From PVC group bacterium (GTDB taxonomy: Bacteria; Auribacterota; Erginobacteria; Erginobacterales; Erginobacteraceae): 44,645 nucleotides of DNA. The stretch is from assembly GCA_003561965.1 (NCBI GenBank), contig PWXJ01000162.1, positions 1 through 44,645 of the forward strand. The letters are read 5' to 3'. Every line of letters begins with the position of its first letter. Positions within the stretch are counted from its first letter, which is position 1. This document shows positions 687 to 20,140 of this stretch, one piece after another. The notes beneath the pieces were generated by a model. The model ran no database searches, was not told the DNA's origin, and worked only from the letters and a program-made list of their open reading frames with translations. The position numbers and the translations under genes were made by a program.

Positions 687-1487
687 GGGGCCGGGCCTGA
701 TCGCCTCGATCCGGGCCGCGCGGACGAACCGCTCCGCCCCACTGTCCGGGAACCAGTCCTTGATGAAGAACGCGCTTTCCTCGTGCACCCGGACGCGGAT
801 GTCGGCAAATCCGGCCGCCTTGAGCATCGCTTCGGTTTCCGGGACGGCGGCGGCTCCGGCGACGCACCCGCTATAGGCCGAGAAGTCCCGTTTTACCCGG
901 TCGGGGATGGGTGCCACCGCCACCACGTCGGAGATGGCCAGACGCCCTCCCGGGCGGAGGACCCGGAAGGCTTCCGAGTAAACCCGCCCCTTATCCGGCG
1001 AGAGGTTGATCACGCAGTTGGAGATAATCGCGTCCGCCGTTTCATCGGACACGGGAAGATGCTCGATCTCGCCGAGGCGAAATTCGACGTTTTCATAGCC
1101 GCCGGCGGCGGCGTTGGTGCGAGCCTTTTCGATCATCTCCTCCGTCATATCAACCCCGATTATCCGGCCGGTCGGACCGACCCGGCGGGCGGCGAGAAAG
1201 CAGTCGAAACCGCCGCCGCAACCAAGGTCGATCACGGTCGCGCCCGCCTTCAGTTCCGCGATTGCCTGAGGGTTGCCGCAGCCCAGCCCCAGGTCCGCCC
1301 CTGCCGGTGCCGAGGAGATTTCCTCGGGCGAGTAGCCGATCCGGGCCGAGGCGCCGGGGGCGGGACCGGGGACGGCGGACGGCTGGCAGCAACCGGTGGC
1401 GCAGCCGCAACTTCCGGCGGATTTGGCGATCGCCGCGTAGCGGCGGCGGATTTCTCGCTTGATCTTCTCGGGCGGGCGGCTTTGCAT
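666..1487 (-). CDS. arsM: Arsenite S-adenosylmethionine methyltransferase (ArsM)
   Basis: SAM motif [31 protein letters not shown], upstream [41 protein letters not shown]-terminal Cys cluster [11 protein letters not shown] opens at 1535, but the first residues (MSFRSFWSFMS) are encoded by an intergenic repeat; ATG at 1487 preferred. Confidence 0.9.
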
Positions 1488-11400: not shown

Positions 11401-14400
11401 CTATCCGCCGCCGGGCAGCCATTTCTTCAGGACCTTCTCCAGGGCGGGGAGGGTGATCGGCTTGGGGAGGTAGTCGTTCATCCCGGCCTGGAGGCAGCGG
11501 TCGCGGTCACCCTTCAGGGCGTGAGCGGTCAGGGCGACGATTGGGATCCGGTGGTCGAGGACTCCGGAGGCGGGGTCGCGGATCTTTTCCGTGGCCTGGA
11601 GGCCGTCGAGCACCGGCATCTGGACATCCATCAGGACCAGGTCGAAGGGCTCTTCGGACAGAGCGGCCAGAGCCTCCCGCCCGTCGACGACGACCCGGGG
11701 ATCGTAACCGAGCTTCTTCAGCATACCGCGGACCACCTTCCGGTTGACCGGGTTGTCCTCCGCCACCAGGATCCGCCCGGACCGCCGGGGCGAGGGGACC
11801 TCCCCTTCCGGGGCGGGGACCGATGACGGCGCGGGAGGAGGAGGGTCCGCCCCCTCGAGGGCGGAGACCAGGACCCGGAGGAGGTCGGCGCGGCGGACCG
11901 GCTTGGAGAGGACGGCGGCGAAGCCGGGACCCTCCCCCCGGGACGGGCCGGGCCGGCCGAGGGAGGTCATCAGGACCAGGGGCAGCGGGGGGATGGCCGG
12001 GTCGGCCCCGATCCGTTCGGCCAGCTCCCCGCCGTCCATCCCCGGCATCATCATATCCAGGATCGCCGCCCGGTAGGGGTCGGACGACGCGGCCGCCCCC
12101 CGCAGTTCCTCCAGGGCCCCGGCGCCGGAGTCGGCCTCTCCGGGCCGCAGGCCCCAGCGGAAGAGCAGCGAAGACACCAGTTTCCGGTTGGTCGGGTTGT
12201 CGTCCACCACCAGCACCCGGGCCGAGCGATGGCCGGAGAGAGCCTCGCACCCCGGAACCCGGGTCGAGGAGACGGCGTCCAGGGCCTCGAAGCGGGCGGT
12301 GAACCGGAAGGTCGAGCCCCGCCCGGGTTGGGATTCGACCGAGATCTCCCCGCCCAGCAGCCCCGCCAGCTGGCGGGCGATCGTCAGCCCCAGTCCGGTC
12401 CCCCCGTGGCGGCGGGTGGTCGTTTCGTCGGCCTGGGTGAAGGGCTCGAAGATCCCCGCGAGGTGCTCCGGGGGGATCCCGATCCCGGTGTCGGCGACCG
12501 AGAAGCCGAGGACCGCCAGGTCCCCCTCTCTTCGCTTCAGGGATACCTCGACCGTCACCGAACCTTGATCCGTGAACTTGACGGCGTTGCCGACCAGGTT
12601 GTTGAGGACCTGCCGCAACCGGGCCGGGTCGCCCTTCAGCCGGGTCGGGGTTCCGGGGATCACCCGGCAGACGAACTCCAGGCCCTTGGCCCCGACCGGG
12701 GCGGCCAGGGCGGAAGAAAACTTCTCCAGTTCCTCCTCCAGGTCGAACTCGACCGTATCCAGGTCAAGCCGACCGGCTTCGATCTTGGATAAATCGAGGA
12801 TCTCGTTGATCAGGGTCAGCAGCGCCTCCCCGCTAGCCTCGATGATCTCGGCGTAATGGCGCTGCTCCGGGTTGAGCGGACTGTCCAGGAGCAGCCCGGT
12901 CATCCCCAGGACCCCGTTCATCGGGGTCCGGATCTCGTGGCTCATATTGGCCAGGAAACGGCTCTTGGCCAGGCTGGCCTCCTCGGCCTTCTTCGTCATC
13001 CGGTTGGCCCAGTCCAGGGCGGCCTGGAGCCGCCGGGTCAGCTGCTCCAGCTCCGCGGTCTTGGCCCGGAGGACCTCTTCGGCGCGCTTGCGTTCGGTGA
13101 TGTCCCGGATGATCGCCACCACCCGCTCCTCCCCGTCGATCTCGACCAGGGAGTTGCTGACCTCGATCGGGATCCGGCGGCCGTTTTTCGCCAGCTCCTC
13201 CGTCTCGATGTAAGTCCCGGGGGCGACCGTCTCCGGTCGGATGGTCGGCGGGAGCCCGGAGCGGGCCTCGGGGGGGAGGAGGTCGGAGACCCGCATCTTC
13301 AGCAGCTCCTTCCGGCGGTAACCGAGCAGGTCGCAGCCCGCCCGGTTGACGTCGACGATCCGCCCCTCCGGGGTCTCGATGAAGATCGCGTCCTGGGCCT
13401 GATTGAATACCGTCTGGAAGCGCACCTCGTTCTCCCGGACCTGCCGGAAGGCCCGGCGGATCTGCTTTTCGGCCCGGCCGGTGACCACCCAGAGGAGGGA
13501 GAGGACCGCCCCGCTCAGGGCCGCCGCCAGGGCCAGGTTAAGGAAGAGGACGGTCTCGTCCTCGGCGGCTTCCAGGGTGACATCCCGGAGGACGAAGATC
13601 GCCCCCACCGGCCGGCCGGCGGCGTCGGGGATCCTGATCATACCCCCGGAGAAGACCCTGCCCTCGTGTCGGAGTCCGACCGGTTCCCCCTCTCCCGGTC
13701 CGCCGGCCAGCCCGGCGGACCAGATCTCCTCGATCCCCTCCGGGGTACGATCGAGGGTCATATTGACCACCGCCACCCGGGAGAATTCGTCCCAGCTCCC
13801 GGCCAATCCCAGCGCTTCCCTCCCGTCCTGGAAATTCTCCCGGGTGGTGTGCTCCTTGTCGACAAGGGTGATGACCTCGGCCCCCAGGGCTCGGGCGAAG
13901 AGCCCGGCCAGGTGCTCGACCTCCAGCCCGAGCTTGAGAAAATCGGAGACCCGGCCGTCCGCCCACCGGGGACGGGCGTAGCGGAGCGTGAAGGTGCCCA
14001 GGGTGCCCATCTCCAGGCCCCAGGCGTCCTGCCCGGTCCGGGCGGCCGTCTCCAGGATCGTCCGCTCGGGTCGGTCGCCCCGGCAGGACGGATCGCAGAC
14101 CCGGAGGTGCCAGCTCAGGTCGGAGTCCGCCAGGTAGAAATGGCTGACCCGGTGGTTCCGCCGGAGCTCCTCGAGCAGGGGGGCCGCCCGGGAGGCCAGC
14201 TCCTCGCGGTCCGGCCAGGGTGCGGCCAGGGCGGGGTGCTCCTGGACCCGGTCGAGGACCGCCCCGAGGACCCGGGCCTCGCTCTCCAGCAGCCGGCTCC
14301 ACTGGCGGCGGGCCTGACCGGTCACCCTCCGGGCCGTCCTCCGGGACTCCTCGGCCCGGTGGAGTAACTGGTAGACCGCGAAGAGGGCCAGGAGCAAGAC

Positions 14401-17306: not shown

Positions 17307-17849
17307 TTAGAGGATAAAGACCGCGGCGGCGACGGTGGTGGTCCAGAGGCCGTTGCGGTCGCCCTCGGCCGACTGGCAGATATTGGTGGTGGTGATGATC
17401 TTGCCCGAGGCCCGGTAGATCTGTTTCCGCTCGTCCCAGGCGGTCTCGGGGTCGAACTCGATCCCCAATGTGGTGGCGAGCATCGTCGCCGCCAGGTCCT
17501 CGGCGTATTCGCCGGATTTCTTCGCCGTCTCCCCGTGGGCGTGGTGCTCGGAGAGATACCCGTAGCCTTTCTTCCGGGCCGGCCTGGCCACCCCGATGGC
17601 CGAGGAGACCAGGCGGTTGGGCTCGTTCGTATCGTTGCGGGCCAGCACCACGAAGACGATCTGGCCGGGCTGGAGGAGTTCTCTCCCCTCCCGGCCGGTC
17701 AGTTTCCGGCAGCCGGGGGGGAGGATGCTGGAGACCTGGACCAGGTTGCACTTCTCGATCCCCGCCTTGCGCAGGGCCATCTCGAACGAGGCCAGCCGGT
17801 CCTTGTGGACCCCGACCCCCTTGGTCAGGAAATACTGTTTCGGGATCAT
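17307..17849 (-). CDS. Pyruvoyl-dependent arginine decarboxylase
   Basis: [50 protein letters not shown]...[24 protein letters not shown]...[11 protein letters not shown]; PvlArgDC family with a VSSILPPG cleavage-site-like segment. Confidence 0.93.
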
Positions 17850-18877
17850 CGGCTTTCCTCCTCGAGGATGTCGGCGTAAGCCCTCGGTTCTCTCCGCCGC
17901 CAGTCCGCCCGGTGATAGACGTAGCCGGCCAGCAGCGGCAGGGCGATGGTCGCCTCGGAATAGACCATCTGCTCGTAAACGTCGTCCACCTTGCCCCAGG
18001 AGTGGGCTTCCTTCAGGGTGGACCCGGAGAGAGCCCCGTCGCGCTCGTCGGCCACGGTGATCTGGATCGCGTAGCGGTGCATCGAGGGGTTTTCCTCGAG
18101 GATATCGGCCGCGACCACGATGTCCTGGGCGAAGTTCTTCGGCACCCCGCCGCCGATCATCACCAACCCGGTCTCCCCGGCCTTGATCTTGAGCCGGGTC
18201 AGCTCGAGAAAGTCGCGGGCGCTGTCGATGGTCACGGCGGCCTTTTTCCCCCGCCGGTGCTGGTGGGCGACCAGGCCGAAACCGGCCGAACAGTCGGAGA
18301 AGGCGGGGACGAAGACCGGGACCGCCCGCCGGTGGCACTCCAGGGTCAGGGAATCTTCCCCCTTCCCCTCCCGCTCCAGGTACCGGCCCAGCTCCCGGAT
18401 GAACTCCCGGGAGGAGTAGGGGCGGGGGGGGAGGGAATCGGCAATCTTCTCCACGGTATGATCGCAGACCCGCAGCTCTTCCTCGTCGATGAAGGTGTCG
18501 TAGATCCGGTCGATCATATTCTCCCGGAGCAACTCGTCGTCGATAAACGGCGTCCCCCGGTAATGCCGGAAACCGAGCGCTTCGAAGAAATCCTGGTCGA
18601 CGATGATCGCCCCGGTGGAGACGACGGCGTCGACCATCTTGTAGCGGACCAGATCCCGGACGACGGTCTTCAGCCCGGCGGAGAAGAGGGAGCCGGCCAG
18701 GCAGAGGATAATCGCGCAGTCCTTATCGGCGATCATCCGCTCGTAGATCCGGCAGGCGGCGGCGAGGTTGCGGGCCTGGAAGGCCATCTTCCCGTAGGCC
18801 TCGATGAGCGGGGCCGGGTCGAAGGCGGTGATGTCGATATGTTCGACCGGGGTGTTGAGAAGATCCTGGCGGTTCAT
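17846..18877 (-). CDS. Deoxyhypusine synthase-like protein (SpeY-type, possible homospermidine synthase)
   Basis: [49 protein letters not shown]...[18 protein letters not shown]...[32 protein letters not shown] 18877. Confidence 0.88.
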
Positions 18878-19013
18878 TTCTATTCTCTCCAATCGTGATC
18901 CGGCGGCCCGGGCGGGCCGGACCGGCCTCTGGTTAACCAAGCGTGTATGTTATGAATAATTACCGGGACGCGCAACCAATTCCTCCCCGGCCGGAATCCG
19001 GGAAAAAATAGTA

Positions 19014-19041
19014 TTGCCTTTTCCGGCGAAACAATTATAAG
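19014..19041 (+). promoter_or_regulatory. Candidate sigma70-like promoter upstream of the small ORF/agmatinase
   Basis: TTGCCT (19014-19019), 16-bp spacer, TATAAG (19036-19041), 35 bp upstream of the ATG at 19077. Confidence 0.4.
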
Positions 19042-19076
19042 GGTTGGGCAGAGTTCAAACCGGTCCAGGTGTCACT

Positions 19077-19247
19077 ATGAATTTGGATTATCTCGAACTG
19101 GAAGAAGGCGAATTCGAAGACTCACCCGGCCGGCGGGGGAAAGCCCGCCACCGCTCCCGGAACGACGAAGAGTTCCGGGGCCGGAAGGACCGCCGGAGCC
19201 AGCGGGAACGGATCAGAAGAATCAGAAAGGCCCAGGAGAGGTTTTAA
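19077..19247 (+). CDS. 56-aa highly charged hypothetical protein
   Basis: MNLDYLELEEGEFEDSPGRRGKARHRSRNDEEFRGRKDRRSQRERIRRIRKAQERF; follows a promoter-like sequence; stop codon 2 nt before the proposed agmatinase start. Confidence 0.45.
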   Translation: MNLDYLELEEGEFEDSPGRRGKARHRSRNDEEFRGRKDRRSQRERIRRIRKAQERF

Positions 19248-19249
19248 CC

Positions 19250-20140
19250 ATCCCTCCCCTCCCCGATCAATTTCTGGACGACGGGACCGAGCCGTCTCCC
19301 TACGTTCCGGCCGCGCGGGCGGCGGTCGTCATCATCCCCGTACCGCTGGAGAAGACCGTCTCCTACCTCCCCGGGACCGCCGCCGGACCGCGGAAAATCC
19401 TGGAAGCTTCCCGGCAGGTCGAGCTCTACGACCCCGAACTGGGGTTTTGCCCCTACCGGCTCGGGATCCACACCGCCGCTCCGGTCGACTGCCGGGGGGA
19501 TTCCGCCGCCGCCCTGGCGGCGGTCGAAGAGGCGGTCGAAGCGGCGTCTGGCCGGTCGGTCCCGGTCTGCCTGGGGGGAGAGCATACCCTGACCCTGGGG
19601 GCGATCCGGGCCCTCCGGGCCGCCGGCGAAAAATTCAGCGTCCTCCACCTCGACGCCCACGCCGACCTCCGGGAGAGTTACGGCGGCGACCGCCTCTCCC
19701 ACGCCTCGGTGATGCGCCGGGTTTACGAACTCGGACCGGACCTGGTCTCGGTCGGGATCCGGTCACTGGAGCGGGAGGAGGCCGACTTCATCGAGGCGGA
19801 GAAGATCAAGGTCTTCCCGGGCTGGAACTTCTCCGGAGAGGACTACCCCTGGACGGAGGTGGCCGCCGCGGTGGGCGAACGGGTCTATCTCACGATCGAC
19901 CTCGACGTCTTCGACCCCTCCGAGGTCCCCGGGGTCGGGACCCCGGAGCCGGGAGGCCTGAGGTGGCGCCAGGCGCTCGATCTCTTCCGAGCCCTCCGGG
20001 ACGCCGGGACGACCCTGGCCGGGGCGGATCTGGTCGAACTCTGCCCGCGGGAAGGCTCGATCATCTCCGAGTTCTACGCCGCGCGCCTCCTCTACAAGCT
20101 GATCGGGTACTTCTTCGGGCCGGAGAAGGAAATCTCCTGA
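19250..20140 (+). CDS. speB: Agmatinase / ureohydrolase-family protein (non-canonical start)
   Basis: Continuous frame IPPLPDQFLDDGTEPSPYVPAARAAVVIIPVPLEKTVSYLPGTAAGPRKILEASRQVELYD...VCLGGEHTLTLGAIRA...VLHLDAHADLRESYGGDRLSHASVMRRV...YLTIDLDVFDPSEVPGVGTPEPGG. No ATG/GTG/TTG until GTG 19709; start set at ATC 19250 behind GGAGAGG. Confidence 0.85.
   Translation: MPPLPDQFLDDGTEPSPYVPAARAAVVIIPVPLEKTVSYLPGTAAGPRKILEASRQVELYDPELGFCPYRLGIHTAAPVDCRGDSAAALAAVEEAVEAASGRSVPVCLGGEHTLTLGAIRALRAAGEKFSVLHLDAHADLRESYGGDRLSHASVMRRVYELGPDLVSVGIRSLEREEADFIEAEKIKVFPGWNFSGEDYPWTEVAAAVGERVYLTIDLDVFDPSEVPGVGTPEPGGLRWRQALDLFRALRDAGTTLAGADLVELCPREGSIISEFYAARLLYKLIGYFFGPEKEIS

Follow-up and report, generated by a model that had tools for sequence, protein, structure and literature searches.

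In Escherichia coli, infC is known to start at AUU and to be subject to autocontrol, as cited in PMC9845219. In Thermus thermophilus, caldomycin synthase (CdmS) joins two agmatines, and the ureohydrolase TtSpeBap turns the product into homospermidine (PMC10981699). Polyamines themselves act on weak start codons in E. coli, where they increase initiation at the inefficient codons UUG and GUG in genes of the polyamine modulon, for example gshA and cya (PMC4405209). The window, meaning the whole 44,645-nucleotide stretch of DNA that was analysed (contig PWXJ01000162.1 of a PVC group bacterium, family Erginobacteraceae), carries an agmatinase-family gene with an apparent ATC start that can be compared with each of these systems.

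Like infC, this gene encodes a full-length conserved protein behind a strong Shine-Dalgarno (SD) sequence, and it appears to use a near-cognate AUN codon, kept among relatives, where AUG would be usual. Unlike infC, it has AUC instead of AUU, its product is a metabolic enzyme and not a factor that discriminates between start codons, and its start sits two bases past the stop of an upstream open reading frame (ORF). The neighbourhood resembles the T. thermophilus pathway in that a ureohydrolase gene lies next to a DHS homologue scoring above the cut-off of NF002699, but the window has in addition a small ORF and a gene for a pyruvoyl arginine decarboxylase. As in the polyamine modulon, a weak start codon would belong to a gene tied to polyamines; however, the modulon responds through UUG and GUG, whereas the gene in the window has AUC and would itself make polyamines.

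An agmatinase gene without a canonical start

The agmatinase frame occupies 19250-20140 on the plus strand (296 codons, TGA stop), and its translation reads IPPLPDQFLDDG...VVIIPVPLEKTVSYLPGTAAGP...GGEHTLTLG...HLDAHADLR...DLDVFDPS. It matches Pfam PF00491 (Arginase) with 214 bits against a cut-off of 22 (3.5e-63) and the equivalog model TIGR01230 (agmatinase) with 221 bits against a cut-off of 174.3. The metal-binding motifs GGxH, DAHxD and DxD are all present in the translation, as GGEHTLTLG, DAHADLR and DLDVFDPS. Measured against the TIGR01230 agmatinases, the product passes the cut-off and has the three metal-motif regions, and only the start codon is unusual. Its predicted product indicates an intact ureohydrolase gene of the agmatinase family, and the substrate of the enzyme could equally be agmatine or caldomycin.

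A sequence-only reading of this DNA had described the frame as free of ATG, GTG and TTG for about 150 codons. This description is accurate: the earliest such codon is GTG 19709, which is codon 154 counting from ATC 19250, so that 153 codons pass without any. The same reading placed GTG 19709 beyond the metal-binding motifs, which holds for GGEH and DAHAD but not for DLDVFDPS, found downstream of the GTG. With codon frequencies taken from five neighbouring genes, 153 codons without ATG, GTG and TTG have a p of ~0.007, and the preference of the agmatinase gene for GTC and CTC accounts for part of the missing canonical codons. As with infC, no canonical start is compatible with the conserved protein.

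The probable initiation codon is the ATC at 19250-19252 (plus strand). The positions proposed for its surroundings are confirmed, with GAGAGG at 19236-19241, 8 nt 5' of the ATC, and the two bases CC between the ATC and the stop of a 56-aa ORF. The SD sequence AGGAGAGG (19234-19241, plus strand) lies within the last codons of that ORF, and its duplex of -8.0 kcal/mol surpasses about two thirds of the SD sites in the genome. An Rfam search of 18700-19500 returned no match, and RNA folding around the SD sequence and the ATC in both the window and its sister species yielded neither a structure that outperformed shuffled sequences nor a fold shared by the two.

Conservation in the sister species and other relatives

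The sister species, Candidatus Erginobacter occultus of the same genus (G001, contig JAVCCZ010000086.1), has an agmatinase with 77% amino-acid identity to that of the window. Its layout is the same, comprising a 56-aa ORF from ATG 2725, an unchanged AGGAGAGG, a stop codon, two bases and ATC 2898; the stop before the ATC is TAG in the sister and TAA in the window. The sister thus shares the anatomy of a coupled gene pair, which in the window reads TAA-CC-ATC with the SD sequence inside the upstream ORF, and this one available relative also keeps a near-cognate codon at a suitable distance from the SD sequence. An ATG at the position of 19250, or an indel that restores an upstream start, would have spoken against the ATC; the sister shows ATC instead, and the reading stands.

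Of the five genomes examined from the order, three have the agmatinase gene, and the ATC start is carried by two genomes only, those of the window and the sister. In a same-order relative, the GTG that starts the agmatinase lies one codon before the position of the ATC; the segment LPxQFLDDGT aligns, and CTC stands at the place of CTG 19274 of the window. Because this relative has a GTG start and no adjoining small ORF, the arrangement of ATC and small ORF is not general. No relative was found in the viral contigs searched. A separate feature of the sister agmatinase is an in-frame TAA at codon 177 (L031:3426-3428) in a frame that is otherwise conserved; a genuine nonsense mutation and a mistake in the assembly are both possible.

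Substitutions between the window and the sister locate the point at which protein-level constraint begins. In the 20 agmatinase-frame codons upstream of the ATC, substitutions are unconstrained (p 0.31), and the same stretch is constrained when read in the 56-aa frame (p 0.016). The first 20 codons from the ATC keep 19 of 20 residues despite eight substitutions (p ~0.001), and the eight codons from ATC to TTT that precede CTG 19274 keep all their residues despite four (p 0.006). Substitutions in the 56-aa frame are conservative across its full length (p 0.004), while those in the other two frames are not. According to these per-frame tests, the ATC therefore marks where constraint on the small ORF gives way to constraint on the agmatinase.

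Over the whole agmatinase gene, dN/dS is 0.37 with a dS of 0.44. The neighbouring DHS homologue and decarboxylase have lower values of 0.21 and 0.25, so constraint on the agmatinase is weaker than on its neighbours. Since the ATC is common to both species, it would most simply be ancestral to both, and the dN/dS of 0.37 argues that the gene has not been silent since the codon was inherited.

Unusual starts in the genome

A scan of 1.06 Mb, or 46% of the genome, covered 759 5'-complete gene calls, of which seven lack a canonical start throughout the upstream region and as far as +35 codons. On inspection, infC and the agmatinase gene are the only ones of the 759 calls to combine a near-cognate codon with a convincing SD sequence and an intact conserved N-terminus. 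The gene infC provided a positive control for this approach: four of the order's five genomes, namely that of the window (L123, G000:C158, about 1300-1324, minus strand) and those of three relatives (L051, L052 and L054), have its ATT start behind a strong SD sequence and lack any canonical start nearby. Elsewhere, at L080:2412-2744, a coding stretch without a canonical start directly follows an upstream stop, and an ATG lies in another frame at the junction, which would fit a one-base indel better than an unusual start.

Alternative explanations

The absence of a canonical start could also mean that the start was lost by a change from ATG to ATC and that the gene is decaying or yields only a truncated product. 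The in-frame TAA of the sister copy and a dN/dS above that of neighbouring genes would agree with such decay, which is nevertheless improbable: the shared and most simply ancestral ATC is accompanied by continuing constraint at a dS of 0.44, the metal motifs are kept, the strong SD sequence is retained at the right distance, and a product from GTG 19709 would be without two metal motifs. An error of sequencing or assembly that turned ATG into ATC, as the sequence-only reading allowed, is very unlikely, with a chance close to negligible. Although the assembly is fragmented (319 contigs, 76% complete), the identical ATC occupies the homologous position in another species, named independently, where synonymous differences surround it.

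Other accounts keep the gene functional but change how its translation would begin. A start at CTG 19274, offered earlier as an alternative, would leave the preceding eight codons untranslated; the codon is present in both species, and such a start would lose nothing essential, as the domains recognised by TIGR01230 and Pfam start only further downstream. It has little chance of being correct, given that CTG 19274 lacks an SD sequence (+0.3 against -8.0 kcal/mol for the ATC), that the eight codons before it are constrained, and that the same-order relative with CTC in its place extends upstream to GTG with LPxQFLDDGT conserved. A programmed -1 frameshift that joins the 56-aa ORF to the agmatinase in a single protein is scarcely plausible. 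The two ORFs are adjacent, and in the window the agmatinase frame stays open upstream across the overlap; yet this upstream part is unconstrained and contains TGA codons in the sister, the 56-aa frame has no X_XXY_YYZ site in either species, the codons at the stop (AGG TTT TAA in the window, AGG TAT TAG in the sister) are not slippery, and the small ORF precedes another gene in the same-order relative.

The small ORF and the putative polyamine gene cluster

Upstream of the agmatinase lies a probable sigma-70-type promoter, TTGCCT-N16-TATAAG (19014-19041, plus strand), whose hexamers and spacing are kept in the sister within an otherwise poorly conserved intergenic stretch. The 56-aa ORF follows at 19077-19247 on the plus strand (ATG 19077, TAA 19245-19247), preceded by the SD sequence AGGTG at 19067-19071 (plus strand; duplex -4.7 kcal/mol), and the junction CCAGGTGTCAC(C/T)ATG is kept in the sister. 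The predicted protein has an acidic N-terminal half and a basic C-terminal half, and its sister counterpart is of equal length, without indels and 71% identical. Searches of the 56-aa protein against Pfam, NCBIfam and PHROGs gave no family match.

Similar proteins occur in two further genomes of the order. In one relative, the small ORF precedes an arginine decarboxylase-agmatinase pair, and in another it adjoins a PLP decarboxylase of the lysA type. Together they form a family of small charged proteins of 50-59 aa, confined to this order among the genomes searched and encoded mostly beside polyamine genes (window 19077-19247; L031:2725-2895; L032:5092-5244; L045:1480-1659, minus strand). The family profile was built from these four sequences, so their high scores arise by construction; support independent of the profile consists of the sister protein, which is 71% identical, and of a match in G003 that is full-length but weak (E 0.14). 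The link between this family and polyamine genes is suggestive.

On the minus strand, the neighbouring genes encode a caldomycin-synthase-like DHS homologue (17846-18880; NF002699, 580.7 bits against a cut-off of 500) and a predicted pyruvoyl-dependent arginine decarboxylase (17307-17816; PF01862, 5.2e-55; NF009064, 170 bits, below the cut-off of 207). The predicted content of the cluster at 17307-20140, with decarboxylase, caldomycin-synthase-like enzyme and agmatinase, is consistent with a route from agmatine through caldomycin to homospermidine. Judging from these neighbours, the ureohydrolase likely hydrolyses agmatine or caldomycin in homospermidine synthesis. Farther away, ARAGORN calls a tRNA-Glu at 13879-13972 (minus strand) within a GC-rich stretch with long ORFs on both strands; this is probably a false prediction.

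Proposed mechanism and implications

Initiation at the ATC by termination-reinitiation, as first proposed from the sequence, is the best-supported reading, given that the ATC, the SD sequence, the two-nucleotide gap and the 56-aa ORF are all conserved in the sister. We consider it probable that translation of the agmatinase starts at AUC 19250 and is coupled to the end of translation of the 56-aa ORF. A short transcript from the conserved promoter would then carry the agmatinase as its second cistron. Ribosomes would translate the 56-aa ORF and terminate at UAA 19245, and AGGAGAGG in the last codons of this ORF would hold the small subunit. The initiator fMet-tRNA would then begin the agmatinase at AUC, two bases on. 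Decoding of AUC by the initiator tRNA and delivery of the ribosome by termination-reinitiation are thus the presumed steps, and the weak codon may limit expression and expose it to the IF3-type discrimination that acts on the AUU of infC. The start is rare, but of a known kind.

A possible, though unlikely, extension is that the AUC and the 56-aa ORF form a polyamine-responsive control that sets the level of the ureohydrolase, in which polyamines or the level of IF3 could tune initiation at the weak AUC and translation of the conserved small charged protein would also contribute.

Bacterial genes without ATG, GTG or TTG starts are rare, and annotation software misses or truncates them; comparing where protein-level constraint begins offers a way to find such genes. 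Alongside the AUU of infC, a polyamine gene with a conserved AUC start would be another natural example, and a simple reporter test could then ask whether weak start codons and polyamine supply are connected. If the polyamine-responsive control is real, the start codon itself would be a regulator of the homospermidine pathway.
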